Source: Campylobacterales bacterium
Lineage (GTDB): Bacteria; Campylobacterota; Campylobacteria; Campylobacterales; Hydrogenimonadaceae
Direction: 5' to 3'
Assembly: GCA_027065515.1 (NCBI GenBank)
Contig: JAMOOM010000158.1
Coordinates: forward strand, 1-34,629
DNA: 34,629 nt
The translations under genes were made by a program, and so were the position numbers. Within the stretch, counting starts at the first letter, position 1; every line of letters starts with the position of its first letter. Of this stretch, positions 7,553 to 17,305 are shown one piece after another. The notes under the pieces were generated by a model. The model did not search any database. It was not told the DNA's origin and worked only from the letters and a program-made list of their open reading frames with translations.

Positions 7553-9619
7553 TCAGGTGAGAATGTTGTAACTGATAAATGCAAGAATCCATGCCAGAAC
7601 ATTGGGATAGATCGTATAGAATGCGCGCCATGCCCATTGTGGGATTTCGGCATAGAAGGTGCTCATCGCCGCCAGGCATGGCGAGTAGATCATTATCAGA
7701 ATGATCATGGAAATGGCAGCGGCGAAAGGTATGTTTTTCTTGATCACATCGGTCAGATTCTTGTCTTCGTCGCTTGTGTGGTAGAGTACAGCCAATGTGG
7801 AGACGACTACCTCTTTCGCTGCCAGGCCAGAGATTGCCGCCACGCTCATTTTCCAGTCGAAACCGATAGGTCGAAGGACGGGTTCGATCGCTTTACCCAT
7901 GTCGGCCAGGTAGCTGTGTTCGAGAATCCATGAATTTTTTTCGATTTCGAGCCTGCTCTTTTCATTGTCGCTTTGAGCCATTTCGATCTTTTTGTCAAAC
8001 TGCTCTATTTGTGCTGAATTGACAGGATAGCTGCTTAGAAACCAGATGATAAAAGCGGCGGTAGCGATGAATGTTCCCGCCTTTTTCAGATACATCTTCG
8101 TCTTGATCCATAGATCGAGTCCCAGCGCCTTCAGAGAAGGAAAGCGATACTTTGGCATCTCCATGACAAAAGGCTCAGGCTCTCCTTTGAAGAGTGTAAG
8201 GCGCAACACTTTCGCGGTGATAAGCCCAAGTATCGCTCCTCCTATATAGATGCCGAACATCACATCCGACTGTATAGCCGGAGCGAAAAACGCACCTACC
8301 AGCAGTACATAGACAGGAAGCCTGGCGCCACAACTCATAAATCCAAGTACCAGCATCGTTATCAGTCTGTCTTTGGGGTTTTTGAGCGTTCTTGCCGCCA
8401 TATATGCAGGCACTGTACACCCAAAACCGCTTACAAGCGGGATGAAGGATTTGCCTTGAAGTCCGAAATGCTTCAAAACACCATCCATTACATAGGCCGC
8501 TCTGGCCATATATCCTGTCTGCTCCAAAATATTTATACCGAAAAAGAGAATCAAAATATTCGGAAGAAACATCACCACAGCGCCCACGGCCGGGATAATA
8601 CCTTCGCTTATCGCACTGTTTACAAATCCTTCGGGCAACATTCGGGCCGAAGCTTCGGAGATATTTCCAAAAACAGTATCGATATAGTCCATCGGAATGG
8701 ACCCCACTTCGAAAGTGAGCCAAAATATTGCATACATGAAAAAAAGAAATATAGGAAGCCCGAGTATCGGGTGAATCAAAATATTGTCGATTTTATCCGT
8801 CAATGTCTCTTTTTTTGGCGCTTTGAGGATCTGGTGGACGATTCCCTTGGCCAATGCGACACGCTCGTCGGCAAACACATCCTTTATGTCCTCTTCGTCG
8901 AATTCGATTTTAAGACGTTCTATCGCTTTTTGAAGCGGCTCGTGTACCTCTAAAAATATTGGGCGATCGTGCACCATCTGGTAGATATCCGGGTCTTCTT
9001 GTAGAAGTCTTATCGCGATAAATCGCGCGGGAAGCTTAAATTTCTCTTTTTCGAGAATTTTTGCAATTTTTCTCGCCTCCTCTTCGATACGCTCATCGTA
9101 AGAGAGTTTGCATTTGTATGTACTGTCGTTGTACGCCTGGATAGAGATGTCGAAAAGCTTTTCCACCCCCGTTTTCTCTTTGGCGGAAGTGTTTACCGCC
9201 TTGATACCCGTAATGTCGAAAAAACGGTCGGTGTCGATATCGCCGCCCATCTTTTTTATTTCGTCGTACATATTGAAAGCTACGACCATCTTCTTTTCAA
9301 GTGTGCAAAGCTGTAGTGTCAGATTGAGGTTTCGGGCGATCGTATTGGCGTCCACTACATTGATGATGAGATCGTAATCCTCATTCATTAGATACTTTTT
9401 CGTGACCTCTTCTTCGGGTGTGTATGCGTCTAGTGAATAGAGACCGGGAAGATCGATCATTTCGATATGATAGTCTCCTCTATCGAATTCGACTTTTTTA
9501 TATTCGACCGTGACGCCCGAAAAGTTGCCCACATGAAGATGTGCGCCGCTGATTGCGTTTATGAGCTGGCTTTTGCCTACATTCGGCTGCCCTACGAGAG
9601 CTATTTTGATCGTTTTCAT
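7553..9619 (-). CDS. feoB: Ferrous iron transport protein B
   Basis: 688 aa; GQPNVGKSQLINAISGAHLHVGNFSGVTVEYK G domain, then Gate/Nucleoside-recognition TM core (PLVSGFGCTVPAYMAARTL). Confidence 0.97.
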   Translation of the reverse strand: MKTIKIALVGQPNVGKSQLINAISGAHLHVGNFSGVTVEYKKVEFDRGDYHIEMIDLPGLYSLDAYTPEEEVTKKYLMNEDYDLIINVVDANTIARNLNLTLQLCTLEKKMVVAFNMYDEIKKMGGDIDTDRFFDITGIKAVNTSAKEKTGVEKLFDISIQAYNDSTYKCKLSYDERIEEEARKIAKILEKEKFKLPARFIAIRLLQEDPDIYQMVHDRPIFLEVHEPLQKAIERLKIEFDEEDIKDVFADERVALAKGIVHQILKAPKKETLTDKIDNILIHPILGLPIFLFFMYAIFWLTFEVGSIPMDYIDTVFGNISEASARMLPEGFVNSAISEGIIPAVGAVVMFLPNILILFFGINILEQTGYMARAAYVMDGVLKHFGLQGKSFIPLVSGFGCTVPAYMAARTLKNPKDRLITMLVLGFMSCGARLPVYVLLVGAFFAPAIQSDVMFGIYIGGAILGLITAKVLRLTLFKGEPEPFVMEMPKYRFPSLKALGLDLWIKTKMYLKKAGTFIATAAFIIWFLSSYPVNSAQIEQFDKKIEMAQSDNEKSRLEIEKNSWILEHSYLADMGKAIEPVLRPIGFDWKMSVAAISGLAAKEVVVSTLAVLYHTSDEDKNLTDVIKKNIPFAAAISMIILIMIYSPCLAAMSTFYAEIPQWAWRAFYTIYPNVLAWILAFISYNILT

Positions 9620-9843
9620 ATCTCCTCCACCTCTATGCTTTCCGCTTCCTCTTTTCTCAGTGCCACGCGGCTATCTGCGGCGCTTATCTCATAAGTGCCT
9701 TTGGCCAGCGTAAATTTTAGCATCTGCACCGTTTCTCCCTTTGCCAATCCCAGCGAGTGAAGTCTATTTTTTATACCTTCGTCGGAAGTGGTTATCTTTT
9801 TTATCTTCGCTTTCTGCCCGATAGGCAATTCGCTAAGTTTCAT
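9616..9843 (-). CDS. feoA: Ferrous iron transport protein A
   Basis: 75 aa SH3-like FeoA; overlaps the feoB start by 4 nt. Confidence 0.9.
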   Translation of the reverse strand: MKLSELPIGQKAKIKKITTSDEGIKNRLHSLGLAKGETVQMLKFTLAKGTYEISAADSRVALRKEEAESIEVEEI

Positions 9844-11084
9844 AATAGTGCCTTAAAATTATAATTTAAAATTATCCGCAACTGATCATAGTCGGAGTCG
9901 GCTGTGGTTTTATCGTCAACGATAGCGTAGGCCAAAGTCGCATTGAACGTTTCGCCGATGGCGTACTCCAGGCTTAAATCGGTCTCCGCGGTTTCATAAT
10001 TGTAGCTATTATCCGCTTTAAAAGACCCATATACCACGCCCGCACTCAATCCTTCGACTCCGATCTGACCAAAGTCGTATCCTGCCCCCACGATCCATGC
10101 GTCGCCTTTTTGACCGATAGCATCGATGGTCTGATCCTCCAAAGAGGTAAAAAACGGTCCGCCGCCAAGGCTTCCAAACGCGCCGGTATCGCCATTGTCG
10201 CTGTTGTAGGCAGCTGTCAATGCCAGGCCGTTTTCAAATCCTGCTTCTGCGCTCACGCCCCATGTGGAGCTGTCGATGTCGCCAGTTAGTTTGTCGCCCC
10301 GGTCGCTTGCCGTGTCGTACTGTAAAGCGAAGGAGAGGGTCGCGAAATCGGTCGGAATTTCGTAGCCCGCTTCCAGATATACTACATCCGCGATATCGTC
10401 GATATCATAGTACCATGCCTGCAAAGATAGATTTTCGATACCTTCATAAACCGCGCTCGCTAGATAGATGCCGTTCGTGCTTTTGGCTGCACCAAGCACC
10501 TTTTCGACCGAGATGAATTTTCTGGCATCTATTCCGTTTTCCCATCCGGCCATCTGGTCGATTTTACCAAGGGTTAGAGTCAATCCCCCGATGTCGGTGT
10601 TTGTCAGCAGGTACGCCATGAAGTAGTTTGGCATCATACGGATATCGTCGCTGTCTGCATGAGGAGTATCTACTCTTTGGCGCCCGATTTTTACTTCGGT
10701 ATTGCCCCATTTGCCGTCGATAAATGCTTGGCTGAGCGTGGCGAAACCCTCTTTGTTTGCATCGAAAAAGTCTCCATTGACCTTGTTTGGATCGTCGTCT
10801 TGAAGCCCCATATCCTCGACGAAGTACCCTTCGACTCCCGCCATGATGCCGTTCCAGCGTTTGGAATCCAGGTGCACATGGCCACCTACGGCGAAGGCAT
10901 GAGTATCAGAAGAGCTGTTTTTACCTTCCGCGTCCCAATTTATATATCCTGTACGAATCTGTGCTTCGGTGTGCTTCAAAGGCTTGACCTGCCCGATAGT
11001 TTTCCTTGGTGATTGAAGCTCCTCCGCTATCAGTTGACCCGTTATCAGTGCCGCCACCGAGACTGAAATAATAATGCGTTGCAT
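9840..11084 (-). CDS. OprD-like outer-membrane porin
   Basis: 414 aa; signal peptide; KIGRQRVDTPHADSDDIRMMPNYFMAYLLTNTDIGGLTLTLGKI motif; C-terminal LRIILNYNFKALL. The stop overlaps the feoA start as ATGA. Confidence 0.85.
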   Translation of the reverse strand: MQRIIISVSVAALITGQLIAEELQSPRKTIGQVKPLKHTEAQIRTGYINWDAEGKNSSSDTHAFAVGGHVHLDSKRWNGIMAGVEGYFVEDMGLQDDDPNKVNGDFFDANKEGFATLSQAFIDGKWGNTEVKIGRQRVDTPHADSDDIRMMPNYFMAYLLTNTDIGGLTLTLGKIDQMAGWENGIDARKFISVEKVLGAAKSTNGIYLASAVYEGIENLSLQAWYYDIDDIADVVYLEAGYEIPTDFATLSFALQYDTASDRGDKLTGDIDSSTWGVSAEAGFENGLALTAAYNSDNGDTGAFGSLGGGPFFTSLEDQTIDAIGQKGDAWIVGAGYDFGQIGVEGLSAGVVYGSFKADNSYNYETAETDLSLEYAIGETFNATLAYAIVDDKTTADSDYDQLRIILNYNFKALL

Positions 11085-11120: not shown

Positions 11121-11167
11121 AATCAATGCCGGAATCTTGGCAGAAAATGGCTTAATACAAAATAAAA

Positions 11168-11182
11168 TGATAATAATTATCA
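11168..11182. promoter_or_regulatory. Fur-box-like site (7-1-7), perfect inverted repeat
   Basis: TGATAAT-A-ATTATCA, matching the classical Fur 7-1-7 consensus. Confidence 0.8.
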
Positions 11183-11336: not shown

Positions 11337-12191
11337 TTATGCTTTAGATATCGTCGGGGCGAAGGCTTTGGTGCTGACGGTGACGATATCTCCAATGGAT
11401 AGGGTATTGGCTTCCGCCTCATCGAGCACCACTTCGACGATCTGCTGGCCGATGGCGACAACGGCGATATGGATGACATCGCGCTTCAGGATGTCGAGCA
11501 GTTCACCTTTGAAAGAGAATTTCTGGCTTCCGGCAGTTTTGAGAAGCACTTCGGCGGGTGTGCCGTCTTGGATGATTTTCCCATGATCGAGCACCACGAC
11601 ACGGTCTGCGAGGCGATAGATCTCGCTTGGGTCGTGGCTGACCATCAGGCTGGTGGTGCCAAACTCTTTGTGCAGGCGCAGGATATCGAACTGCAACCTG
11701 GTGCGCATCGCCGGATCGAGTGCGGAGAGAGGCTCGTCCATGAGCAGTAGTTTGGGTCGCTTCATCAAGGCACGGCAAAGAGCCGCCCGCTGCTTCTGGC
11801 CGCCGCTGAGTGTGGCGGGGTGCCTGTGGGCCAGCTCTTCTAGCGATGTGAGATTCAGCAGGTGAGTAGCCAGCGTTTTATCGTTTTCCACGAACAGAAG
11901 ATTCTGGAGGATCGTCATATTTTCAAAAAGGGCGTAATCTTGAAAAACGAAGCCGATTTTACGTTTTTGCGGAGGCAGGGAGGATTTTGCATCCAGCCAT
12001 ATTTCATCGCCGACAGTGATCTTTCCATCCGCCTTTTCGAGGCCCGCTACGGTGCGGAGCAGTGTCGTTTTTCCGCTTCCGCTCTCTCCTGCGATAGCTA
12101 CAAAAGCGTGCTCTTCTATCTCGATGCTAACTTGCAGAGTCATCTCTCCCATGCTTCCTGCTAGGGGCTTTCGAATATCGATAGCTATCAT
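11337..12191 (-). CDS. modC: Molybdate ABC transporter ATP-binding protein
   Basis: [18 protein letters not shown] Walker [16 protein letters not shown] signature, [11 protein letters not shown] Walker B; C-terminal TOBE-like domain. Confidence 0.93.
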
Positions 12192-12877
12192 CGAAAGGCT
12201 CCGAATTTTCGTTTTTGGTAGCGGTTGAAAATATAGACGCCAAGCAATACGATGAAACTGATTGCCACCATGACGGCACTGTAGATATGGGCTGTGGAGT
12301 AATCCATCGTCTCGACCAGCTCGTAGATCGCGACGGAAGCGACTTTCGTTTCGCCGGGGATCGATCCGCCCACCATCAATACCACGCCGAACTCTCCGAC
12401 AGTGTGGGCGAACGTGACGATGAGCGCGGTCATCAGGGATGGTTTGATGTTTGGAAGCGCTACTTTGAAGAGAGTCTGGACAGGGCTTTTGCCGGCGATG
12501 TAGGCCGCTTCTATCATATTTTCATTGAGGCTTTCGAAACCGCTTTGCAGCGGCTGCACCATGAAAGGAAAGGAGTAGAGGCAGCTGGCGATAACGAGCC
12601 CGGTGAAGTTGAATACAAGCTGCACTCCGAAAAGATCGTTGAAAAAGGAGCCGATCGGAGAGTTTATAGATAGCCCCCAGAGTATATAGAAGCCTAGCAC
12701 CGACGGCGGCAGAACGATCGGAAGCGATGTGATCGCCTCGGCGGCGGGCTTTAGTCGCGTGCGCGTGCGGCTGAGCCACCAAGCGGTGGGGAGGGCTATG
12801 AAAAACAAGATTACCGTCGTCACGGCCGCAAGTTTGAATGAAAGAATGAAAGGGGTCCAGTTGATCGTATTCATCAA
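12188..12877 (-). CDS. modB: Molybdate ABC transporter permease
   Basis: 229 aa; [18 protein letters not shown]...[32 protein letters not shown]. Confidence 0.95.
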
Positions 12878-13269
12878 AGCACCTTCAAAATTGAGAGTTC
12901 GCTTGCCTGAAAGAGAGCGATGGCGGTATCGCCCGGCGCGAAAGAGAGATTTGCAAGTGCGGCTTTGGGAACGACGCTTTCGACGGTTATATCTTCAAAT
13001 AGTAGCGTCAGCGAAACGAGAATGTTGCCTTTCGTGATTTTTTCGATCGTCATGGGAATCTGGTTGGATATCGCAGCATTCGGAAGCCGGTGTGAGCAGA
13101 GGGCTATATGGGTCGATTTGACGCCAAGCTCCACCTCTTTTTCTCTCTTTATACCCTGGGGAAGTTCGAGGGAGATCATCGTCAAACTCTCGCCGAAAGC
13201 GTCGAAAGTTACGCACGATATACCTTCATATACCTGGATGTTCACAATACGCGCGGGTATGCGGTTCAT
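12874..13269 (-). CDS. Molybdenum-binding TOBE (Mop) domain protein
   Basis: 131 aa with two Mop/TOBE-like repeats; sits between modA and modB with 4-nt overlaps. Confidence 0.75.
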
Positions 13270-14027
13270 GGGAGCATATATCCATATCTTCGAAAGATCG
13301 CACGCGCCTGTGGGCCTAGAATAAAGTTGTAGAAAGCGCGACAGGAAGCGTCGTTTTTGGCGTTTTTGAGCAGGACGATTCCCTGGTCGATCGGGGTGTA
13401 GAGCGAAGGATCTACCTCTGCCCAGTGACGACCCTTCTTGAAGCGCTGCATCTTGGGGCTATAGAGTGAGGATTTGGCGACTATTCCGATATCCGCGGCC
13501 GTCATCGCGTAGGCTACAGTCTGCGAAATGCTTTCGGCGAAGATGATTTTTGGTTTGATGCGCGTGAAAAGAGCGCTGTTTTTCAGCGCTTCGACCGCCG
13601 CCTTGCCGTAGGGTGCAGTGTTGGGGTTGGCGACGGCGATACGCCGGATGGCGGGAGAATCGAGCAGAAAAAGCCCTTTGGAGAAGTTGCGTGGTTTGGG
13701 GGAGAAGAGCGCCAATACGCCTCTTGCATACACTCGTGGCTTCGTGATGGCGATCTTTTGCTCAAAAAGTGCCCTGGGATAGGAGATATCGGCCGATATG
13801 AAGATCTGAAACGGCGCGCCGTTTCGTATCTGGGCGGTCAGCTTGCCACTGCTTCCCATGATCGTGCGCACCCTGATATCGGGATGTTTTTTGGCAAAAG
13901 CCGCCTTGAGATCGTTCAGGGCGTAGCTGACATTCGCGGCTACGGCGACGGTGATCTCTTTGGCATGCACCGCCGTGAATCCAAAAACCATCCATGCGAT
14001 GACGATACCGAGCCACTTTTTTTTCAT
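13266..14027 (-). CDS. modA: Molybdate ABC transporter substrate-binding protein
   Basis: Signal peptide; EITVAVAANVSYALNDLKAAFAKKHPDIRVRTIMGSSGKLTAQIRNGAPFQIFISAD. Confidence 0.95.
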   Translation of the reverse strand: MKKKWLGIVIAWMVFGFTAVHAKEITVAVAANVSYALNDLKAAFAKKHPDIRVRTIMGSSGKLTAQIRNGAPFQIFISADISYPRALFEQKIAITKPRVYARGVLALFSPKPRNFSKGLFLLDSPAIRRIAVANPNTAPYGKAAVEALKNSALFTRIKPKIIFAESISQTVAYAMTAADIGIVAKSSLYSPKMQRFKKGRHWAEVDPSLYTPIDQGIVLLKNAKNDASCRAFYNFILGPQARAIFRRYGYMLP

Positions 14028-14043
14028 GCGACACTCCTCTTTT

Positions 14044-15612
14044 TCAAAATAGATAGTTCATCTCCAAACGATACTCGCTGTATGAAGGATCCGAGCCATC
14101 GAGATTTTTGTCGGCATCGACAAACCCCATCCGAATCCTCGCTTCGAGTCCCGGTATTTGCGATATTTTCCATATGGCACCCAACTCCAGAATTTTACGA
14201 TCGGAGGGGGTGAGGGGGATCCATTTGGCTTTTGCGGTATCGTATATCTTTTTGGTCTCGTCGAAATCTTCCACAACGAAGCGGAACATTGCCGTAATAT
14301 CTTCGGCGCTCCCCACTCCGTTTAGGTCGTAATCTCCACGTATCATCCATGTATCGGTATTCGCAAACCAGTTGTACTGTCCCATTGCACGGGTAAAGCC
14401 GCCGGTTGGAAACCCTCTCCAGGGAGCTACGATATCCGCCTTGTCGCCAGTGTGCGAATAACCAAGCCGCACTCTGTATGGCGTGTCCCGTTGCAGGTCG
14501 ATACGGGCGGCAAGCAGCCAGCCGTCCAGTGAGTGCGGGTTGCGATAGCCTCCATCCTGGCCCGATGTCGTGGTATGCCATGGGCTTAAAAGTCCAACCA
14601 GGGCCGCGCCTCCCACTTTCCCTCCACCGTTGTCCAGCTGATGCAGGTATCGCAATCCGGGCGCGATTTTCCATGTACCTGCCGTGAATTTATAATGCGC
14701 CTCCACAGTCGCACTGGAGAGCACCCCCGGTACGGCTGTATAGTTGAGCATCGCTTTTAGATTGGGCGTCGATGAGCTCCATATTTCGGCTATCAGGAGA
14801 TCGTGATGCGTTTTTTTGCCCGATTTTTTGTAGTTGTCGTACGAAAGGCCTTTGTGCATCGCCGAATCGTCGTTGTTGCTCCATATGTGGATCAGCCTCT
14901 CTTTGTCGGTGAGATTGGAGAGTGAGCAGTCGGCGTATGTAAGCGGATCGTGAAAGTTTGCATGGCTGCGCAGCTTCTGCCTGGTAAACCATGCCAGTTT
15001 GAGTGTATGTTTTGGCAGATCATGGCTGGTTATCGAGATGCCTTTGAAAGTGTTTGGAATCATTTTGGAGTCGTTGCTTTTCGCCAACAGACTTTCGAAT
15101 TTCTGACGGCCGTACTTGAGGCTCGTATTTCCAAGCCGATATTCCGCGTACAATTGGGCAATGACGTTTATGCAGTAATTGCCATCGAGATAGACATCCT
15201 TCCGGCTCAGGAGATCTTTGCCGGATTTGAGAAACCTGATATCGTTTTTATCCATATGCCATGGATTTTGACTGGTGTAGGCGTCGATCGTGGCGCCCAA
15301 TCCGCGCAGATATGCGGTTTTGAATGTCAAGCTGCCGCCGACTCCTGTAGCCCAGTTGTCTTTAGTTTTTCCTTCTATCTCCTCTTTCCAGTCATAAAAG
15401 AGAGCGTGCATACGCAGCCGGCCGTACCACACGCCTTTCTCGAAAAGCTCTCCAAGGCTCTTTGCATCGGAAGGGAGCACGTTGTATGTAAGGGTGCGGT
15501 TGGAGTTTAGGGTCCGTTTTGCGTGATAGACGTGTTCGGATGTCCCGGATGCCTGAACCGCAGAGGAGATGATGGCCGTCAGGAAAAAACCGGTTGAAAA
15601 AAAAGATCGCAT
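14044..15612 (-). CDS. OprD-like outer-membrane porin within the mod operon
   Basis: 522 aa; signal peptide; SLKYGRQKFESLLAKSNDSKMIPNTFKGISI motif shared with the feo porin; C-terminal YRLEMNYLF. Confidence 0.85.
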   Translation of the reverse strand: MRSFFSTGFFLTAIISSAVQASGTSEHVYHAKRTLNSNRTLTYNVLPSDAKSLGELFEKGVWYGRLRMHALFYDWKEEIEGKTKDNWATGVGGSLTFKTAYLRGLGATIDAYTSQNPWHMDKNDIRFLKSGKDLLSRKDVYLDGNYCINVIAQLYAEYRLGNTSLKYGRQKFESLLAKSNDSKMIPNTFKGISITSHDLPKHTLKLAWFTRQKLRSHANFHDPLTYADCSLSNLTDKERLIHIWSNNDDSAMHKGLSYDNYKKSGKKTHHDLLIAEIWSSSTPNLKAMLNYTAVPGVLSSATVEAHYKFTAGTWKIAPGLRYLHQLDNGGGKVGGAALVGLLSPWHTTTSGQDGGYRNPHSLDGWLLAARIDLQRDTPYRVRLGYSHTGDKADIVAPWRGFPTGGFTRAMGQYNWFANTDTWMIRGDYDLNGVGSAEDITAMFRFVVEDFDETKKIYDTAKAKWIPLTPSDRKILELGAIWKISQIPGLEARIRMGFVDADKNLDGSDPSYSEYRLEMNYLF

Positions 15613-15622
15613 GAAATATCCT

Positions 15623-16414
15623 TCAATAAATACCGATCATGATCTGGCTCGCTTTGCAAAAAGCTGCAACCTCCATCCCGACTTCCAGTGCAAGTGATTC
15701 AAGCGCCTGTGTGCCAAGCTGTGCGCACAGGCGTGCCCCGCCATCCAAAGATACGATGACATCGTGATTGACACTTCCTCTTTCGATGCGCTCCACGATG
15801 CCCTCGAATCGGTTTTCCACTCCCAGTCTCAGGCTCATATCGGTCGAAAGAAGCAGAGCATTGGCTTTGAAGAGTGCGTAGAGACTGGAGCCTGTAGAGA
15901 TGTCGAGCTCGCTTAGGGAGTCGTTGGTGATCGTAGCCGTCAAGGGGTGTCCGCCTTTAAGATGCAGGGTGATCTGGGAGTTGACGGCACCTCGCTCGAT
16001 CCGTACCACTTCTCCGGCAAGCTGGTTTCTGGCGCTTATGCGCATCGACATGGAGTTGAGCAGTCGCAAATGTCCATCCTTTTCGTTGATACGGCGAGAG
16101 AGGTTGTGCAAAAACCGTTCATGCTCCTCTTCGAGGATGCGGAAGGTCTCCACCACCTCCCGGCCATAATCGGTCAGGCGTGTGCCGCCGCCGCCCTTTC
16201 CGCCGGTGACCCGCTCCACCAGGGGCTTTTCGGCCAGGTTGTTCATCGCGTCCACCGCGTCCCATGCCGCCTTGTAGCTCATCTTCATTGCTTTGGCCGC
16301 TTTGGAGATGGAGCCGGTTTCGTCGATGAGACGCAGAAGCTCCATCCGTCCATGTCCGAGAAAGGCGTGCTTCTCTTTTCCCAGCCAGAGGCGACCCTCC
16401 ACTTCGTTGCGCAT
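15623..16414 (-). CDS. modE: Molybdate-responsive transcriptional regulator ModE
   Basis: wHTH (MELLRLIDETGSISKAAKAMKMSYKAAWDAVDAMNNL...GGKGGGGTRLTDYG) plus two Mop/TOBE repeats. Confidence 0.95.
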   Translation of the reverse strand: MRNEVEGRLWLGKEKHAFLGHGRMELLRLIDETGSISKAAKAMKMSYKAAWDAVDAMNNLAEKPLVERVTGGKGGGGTRLTDYGREVVETFRILEEEHERFLHNLSRRINEKDGHLRLLNSMSMRISARNQLAGEVVRIERGAVNSQITLHLKGGHPLTATITNDSLSELDISTGSSLYALFKANALLLSTDMSLRLGVENRFEGIVERIERGSVNHDVIVSLDGGARLCAQLGTQALESLALEVGMEVAAFCKASQIMIGIY

Positions 16415-16415
16415 C

Positions 16416-17249
16416 TTAAGCTCTTTCCATTTCTACACCGATGTCGGCAGGCCCGGCAAAGTAGTAGGGTGCAGTGGTGATAAGTCCGTCCACGCCCGTG
16501 GCGGCATACTCTGCAACATTTTCAAGACGGATGCCTCCGGTGGCAAGAAGCCTGATATCCGGGTATCGTCGCTTTAGCAGTTTCACGCTGTTTCGAAGAT
16601 CCAAAGGGGAGAACTTTTCGAGTTGAAAAAGCCGCACACCGTATTCGGCGAACAAAAGAGTCTCATCCAAAGAGTCCGTTTCTACAGCCAGAGTCTTTTC
16701 GAGCAGCGCCTCTTTTGGCAGGCTGGAGATTTTTTGAAGCAACTTTTCGGGGTCCATAAAGATGCGGTGGTTGTCAAAAAGCAAGAAAGTCTCGGAAAGA
16801 CCCAACCGGTGCGGGTGACCGCCCCCGCTTACGACCGCTTTCATTGCGATTTTTTTGAATCCGGGTGGTGATTTACGGGTGGTAAAAAGAGGAATGTCGC
16901 CGGCTATTTCGACCATTTCATGGGTATAGGTGGCGATACCGCCTGCATACTCGAGGAGATTTTGACACACTTTCCATGCCTGATGAAGCACGCCTGCGCA
17001 GCCTTCGGCTTCCAGGAGGGTCGTCCCCGCCTCGGCACACTGCCCGGAAGGAAGAATCGAGATATTACGAGCACCCAGTTTTTCAAGAATCCGTTTCGCC
17101 TCTTCGGTGCAGGCTGCAATAGACTTTTCGCGGCAGATATAACGGATGCGTCCTTTTTGCTCTTCTATGCCGAGAGCTCGTGTCGTGAGATCGGAATATG
17201 GAAGATCCTCTTCGATGAGCCGGTCGATTTCAAGGTCGGAGAAAAACAT
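16416..17249 (-). CDS. modD: ModD, nicotinate-nucleotide pyrophosphorylase-like protein
   Basis: QPRTase fold: EEDLPYSDLTTRALGIE...TRKSPPGFKKIAMKAVVSGGGHPHRLGLSETFLLFDNH; first gene of the mod operon. Confidence 0.92.
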   Translation of the reverse strand: MFFSDLEIDRLIEEDLPYSDLTTRALGIEEQKGRIRYICREKSIAACTEEAKRILEKLGARNISILPSGQCAEAGTTLLEAEGCAGVLHQAWKVCQNLLEYAGGIATYTHEMVEIAGDIPLFTTRKSPPGFKKIAMKAVVSGGGHPHRLGLSETFLLFDNHRIFMDPEKLLQKISSLPKEALLEKTLAVETDSLDETLLFAEYGVRLFQLEKFSPLDLRNSVKLLKRRYPDIRLLATGGIRLENVAEYAATGVDGLITTAPYYFAGPADIGVEMERA

Positions 17250-17277: not shown

Positions 17278-17305
17278 ATCGTAGTATATCTAAATATATA
17301 ACGCT
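17278..17305. promoter_or_regulatory. ModE-box-like operator upstream of modD
   Basis: ATCGtagTATA-tctaaa-TATATAACGct compared with the E. coli-type ModE consensus ATCGnTATATA-N6-TATATAACGAT; 29 bp upstream of the modD start. Confidence 0.72.

Follow-up and report, generated by a model that had tools for sequence, protein, structure and literature searches.

Introduction

Molybdate and similar oxyanions are usually assumed to pass the outer membrane via general porins, and the outer-membrane passage of such trace oxyanions has hardly been studied. With respect to fold, the closest described systems are the OprD/Occ channels of P. aeruginosa and A. baumannii (OccD1, OccK1/OpdK, OpdQ and OccAB2), 18-strand barrels for carboxylates in which a basic ladder, with R389, R391 and R410 as its central residues in OccD1, has been described (PMC3260308). 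Alike in concept are the phosphate porins OprP and OprO, where a dedicated porin and an arginine ladder serve an inorganic oxyanion (Moraes 2007, as cited in PMC3260308). In case of molybdate itself, the outer-membrane protein IcmP of P. aeruginosa has been proposed to act in acquisition together with T6SS-secreted ModA (cited in PMC8602904). Finally, Fur-regulated porins beside feoAB in Geobacter have likewise been assigned to one metal based on operon and regulator box (PMC545781), although there the metal is iron and the proteins belong to other porin families than the one described here.

Here, we analyze a stretch of 34,629 nucleotides (the window) from a Campylobacterales bacterium (assembly GCA_027065515.1, contig JAMOOM010000158.1, positions 1 to 34,629) in which an OprD-type porin gene is embedded in a molybdate operon. 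A first-pass annotation of this DNA had proposed that the porin is a dedicated, co-regulated molybdate/tungstate channel and as such a new component. We could not find any description of a molybdate-, thiosulfate- or modABC-linked OprD porin in the open-access literature, but IcmP constitutes a precedent in P. aeruginosa. Our best reading of the data is that the porin is a channel dedicated to molybdate, and probably also to tungstate, and is accessory to the uptake system, with substrate, transport and direction all being inferred.

Results and discussion

The porin gene (14044-15612, minus strand, ATG start) encodes a 522-residue protein of the OprD/Occ superfamily and is part of a seven-gene minus-strand run with the order modD-modE-porin-modA-mop-modB-modC. 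The run starts with modD (16416-17249; TIGR01334, above cut-off), followed by the gene for the molybdate-responsive regulator ModE (15623-16414), which contains an HTH, a ModE_repress and two Mop/TOBE domains. Downstream of the porin lie modA, encoding the molybdate-binding protein (13266-14027; TIGR01256, above cut-off), a gene for a small Mop/TOBE-like protein of 131 residues identified by domain match (12874-13269), the permease gene modB (12188-12877; TIGR02141, above cut-off) and the gene for a 284-residue ModC-type ATPase (11337-12191), which scores below the curated ModC cut-off and was named from context. Spacing is 1 nt between modD and modE, 10 nt between modE and the porin and 16 nt between the porin and modA, with 4-nt overlaps thereafter. 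The description of a tight run with gaps of about 20 nt at most therefore holds, with measured gaps of no more than 16 nt and a confirmed porin reading frame. A separate promoter and terminator around the porin had been named as a finding that would refute the proposal. No minus-strand promoter-like site was detected at the modE-porin or porin-modA junction and no minus-strand terminator-like site between modD and modA. Both the spacing and the missing terminator are consistent with co-transcription of the porin and the mod genes, which we infer in the absence of expression data. With the Mop/TOBE-like protein standing between modA and modB, the ModC-type ATPase itself gives no TOBE match; this domain seemingly forms a stand-alone protein in many relatives.

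Using the published ModE consensus ATCGNTATATA-N6-TATATANCGAT (PMC545781), a palindromic ModE box was identified at 17278-17305 (AGCGTTATATATTTAGATATACTACGAT on the minus strand), upstream of modD and overlapping a -10-like TATACT hexamer. It deviates from the consensus at 3 of the 20 specified bases and is the sole match in the window (0 matches in 100 shuffles) as well as in the whole 1.94-Mb genome to which the window belongs. That a ModE-box-like site precedes the run, with the porin downstream, is thus confirmed at the sequence level, while binding data are lacking. With the same restriction, the locus has all the elements by which we define a ModE-regulated uptake operon, namely the genes modABC and modE plus a promoter with a ModE box. 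On this basis, the porin is probably under ModE control, with repression being inferred.

A second OprD-type porin gene (9840-11084, minus strand) is located in the window directly before feoA (9616-9843) and feoB (7553-9619), and a Fur-box-like site with 2 mismatches is found at it (11163-11181). In genomes of the same genus (L098, L129, L131 and L132), this feoAB-linked porin adjoins the mod operon. Judged by its neighbors and the putative box, it appears to be the equivalent of the molybdate porin for iron.

The porin has a signal-peptide-like N-terminus, a C-terminal phenylalanine and an AAGGA ribosome site, all judged by eye. The Pfam OprD model (PF03573) matches with 44.9 bits against a cut-off of 25 (E=1e-11), which suffices for assignment to the superfamily. 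The match is restricted to residues 79-227 and covers just the first half of the protein; the predicted fold confirms the remainder. An AlphaFold model based on the 68-row family alignment contains 18 barrel strands (pLDDT 93, pTM 0.89), and the best PDB matches returned by Foldseek are all Occ/OprD proteins (OpdK, OprE, OccAB3, OpdG and others), so that by strand count and top ranks the protein qualifies as an 18-strand OprD/Occ barrel (TM by target about 0.80). OprP and OprO are absent among the 50 Foldseek matches listed and also differ from this porin in regulator and inferred substrate.

Similarity to the OprD/Occ channels extends to the central basic ladder. R492, R494 and R515 have basic residues at the aligned positions in OccAB2 (5dl6) and OpdQ (3t24) and, based on spacing, are inferred to be the counterparts of R389, R391 and R410 of OccD1. 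Position 492 is K or R and positions 494 and 515 are R in all 68 rows of the family alignment, with R65, R67, R169, K183, K213, R215, R321, R370, R399, R408 and K454 as further invariant or near-invariant basic residues. The L3 motif 'ND-K/R-P' is also common to both groups. In contrast, sequence identity is only 11-16%, the porin exceeds these channels by ca. 100 residues and has long loops, and its family is distinguished by a family-wide loop-7 motif, 'APWRGFPTGG-TRAM-QYNW'. No named NCBIfam Opr subfamily fits (best score 24 bits, cut-off 150), so that the porin fails this criterion for the OccD and OccK subfamilies. Cargo would differ as well, with carboxylates in the known channels and inorganic oxyanions suggested by genomic context here.

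We screened 249 genomes of one order, inferred to be Campylobacterales from a contig in common with a named Helicobacteraceae MAG, and 81 of them contain porin homologues (E<1e-20). Examination of the neighborhoods of 95 porin genes, window included, placed 27 of them (again including the window) in mod operons and 32 directly after soxB in thiosulfate-oxidation operons. Two are found with WtpABC and MoeA in a tungstate context (FdhD confirmed in one), one precedes Sbp-CysTWA (L094), one follows moaD-moaE-moeA (neighbors identified by eye) and the context of another 32 is uninformative. A mod-linked label for L094 was rejected given its sulfate operon, and tree counts use the corrected label. 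In mod loci, the distance from the end of the porin gene to modA is usually between -4 and 23 nt, with 8-20 nt being typical, and several of these operons begin with the porin. Several genomes hold paralogues in differing contexts, with genome G137 carrying three, one each in a sox, a mod and a sulfate context. In L082 (genome G148), the porin is directly followed by mop-modB-modC in an operon without modA, which is found on a different contig. Locus L070 encodes a 109-aa porin fragment (8565-8894) and, beside wtpABC, moeA and fdhD, a protein of 243 residues whose C-terminal part is a ModE-type HTH domain (11745-12473), possibly an unusual ModE-like regulator judging from this domain. A strong ModE-like box (2 mismatches) lies directly upstream of a sox-linked porin inside the sox operon of L083 (8821-8926, genome G089); if functional, it could possibly mean Mo control of a sox gene.

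We searched the 250 bp before each porin start for ModE boxes, allowing up to 4 mismatches. Of the mod-labelled loci, 10 of 28 contain such a box, compared with 1 of 32 sox loci and 2 of the 32 loci grouped as other. Fisher's test gives p=2e-4, which is only indicative as the loci are related. A reversed ModE pattern is unsuitable as a control in such short regions since in mod loci its matches coincide with genuine boxes, and contexts were therefore compared with each other. Several mod loci without a porin-proximal box carry one before modE or modD instead, as seen in the window. One of the two boxes in the other loci (L088:8895-8933, genome G181) is located just upstream of an unlinked paralogue of the porin, and G181 has a mod-linked copy besides.

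In a maximum-likelihood tree, mod-linked porins occupy at least four places: the window porin groups with two relatives of its genus, seven porins form a second group, thirteen from other families a third and four a distant one. Sox-linked porins are placed between these groups. Based on a quick tree, a single mod-linked clade is rejected (AU p=3e-8) and the mod label needs 6 changes. Because the mod-linked porins do not form one clade, several separate recruitments into mod operons have occurred. The first-pass annotation had suggested looking for mod-linked homologues across Campylobacterota, and this check yielded linkage in several families and of several origins.

While modA is present in 222 of the 249 genomes, the porin is part of the mod operon in only about 27 of these 222 (ca. 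12%), and no substitute porin was found in the modE-modA slot of the porin-free mod operons examined. In the nearest porin-free operon (genome G195; ModE 78% and ModA 76% identical), modE and modA are adjacent or overlapping, and the family porin of G195 belongs to the sox operon. The porin thus represents an added, accessory cassette and not a core component, and is dispensable to molybdate uptake in general. Both the G195 operon and the porin-free majority would also be expected if an ordinary porin had been inserted by chance or hitch-hiked neutrally without any part in Mo uptake. We strongly disfavor this idea and give it very little credence, as 27 mod-linked loci in several families and of several origins, the tight modA spacing and the ModE boxes before the porin all speak against it. 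Judged from gene neighborhoods and tree, repeated independent arrival beside modA would be hard to explain by drift.

Concerning the substrate, molybdate alone proved too narrow for the family as a whole, given its sox, wtp and cys contexts, whereas recurrent mod linkage supports the molybdate/tungstate assignment for the porin studied here. Since members occur just as often in sox operons and in a few cases beside transporters for tungstate or sulfate, the substrate class is best described as divalent tetrahedral oxyanions. We consider it somewhat more probable than its negation that these proteins form an unrecognized Campylobacterales family for such oxyanions, members of which are repeatedly exchanged among operons for molybdate, tungstate, sulfate and thiosulfate, adopt the regulation of each and provide each system with its own channel.

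In many Campylobacterales sox operons (L105-L119 and others), the family porin lies between soxB and a gene for a SoxH-like metallohydrolase. By position, the sox-linked porin is a candidate thiosulfate channel, seemingly undescribed. For Sulfurovum indicum, soxB (RS08600) and soxH1 (RS08590) have been reported, and the available part of that report does not discuss the porin slot; from these locus tags we infer that the one gene left between them corresponds to it. A sox role was rejected for the window porin: soxB is absent from its genome according to both a protein search and a curated model, which makes a thiosulfate function of this copy unlikely. The same genome contains only three OprD genes and seven molybdopterin-oxidoreductase matches.

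A broader reading would be that the porin passes sulfate- and thiosulfate-type anions without preference for molybdate, so that the mod operon merely lends ModE control and the main benefit is general anion flux. The 32 loci after soxB and the one with sbp-cysTWA fit this reading, as does the lack of specificity residues: in the 68-row alignment, no clear residues separate mod- from sox-linked porins, with only six weak columns and a few aromatic/aliphatic swaps, and selectivity for molybdate over sulfate is consequently unsupported. However, ModE control is sensible only if Mo or W matters, recruitment into mod operons has been repeated and independent, wtp and moeA contexts occur as well and the window genome has no soxB. 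We thus regard general anion flux as unlikely, if worth keeping in mind.

It is also conceivable that, instead of importing free molybdate, the porin admits Mo in complexed form, either as thiomolybdate or within a small organic chelate, or serves to export surplus oxyanion. The sulfidic habitats of many relatives would favor thiomolybdates. Organic carboxylates are the classical Occ cargo (PMC3260308). Yet the operon contains no chelate biosynthesis genes, a ModE-type box overlapping the promoter fits import under scarcity and relatives adjoin sulfate and thiosulfate systems, leaving this possibility quite improbable.

With good though not high confidence, we explain the locus by the porin being the outer-membrane entry channel of this ModE-controlled molybdate uptake system. 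At low intracellular molybdate, ModE would dissociate from its box (17278-17305), followed by transcription of the entire modD-to-modC run, as inferred from box and spacing. In the 18-strand Occ-type barrel, R492, R494, R515 and other R/K residues may then draw MoO4(2-), and probably WO4(2-), to the loop constriction, a step relying on a predicted fold, an aligned ladder and an inferred substrate. Periplasmic ModA would bind the ion and ModBC would import it. Other family members are located in sox, wtp and cys operons, and entry into mod operons has taken place several times. Gene order, ModE-box sequence, predicted fold, conservation and independent recruitment are the observations on which this scheme is built; expression, conductance and uptake data are not available.

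Conclusions

In summary, a concrete candidate for molybdate passage across the outer membrane now exists at 27 genomic loci, ModE boxes being present at many of them, and natural pairs of mod operons with and without the porin are available for comparison. For sulfur-oxidizing Campylobacterales, the sox-linked members offer a candidate channel for the thiosulfate used by the sox system, and the paralogue set could reveal how one barrel fold selects ions. As porins of this family have repeatedly joined molybdate, tungstate, sulfate and thiosulfate operons, the porin described here probably provides such closely similar ions with an entrance of their own.
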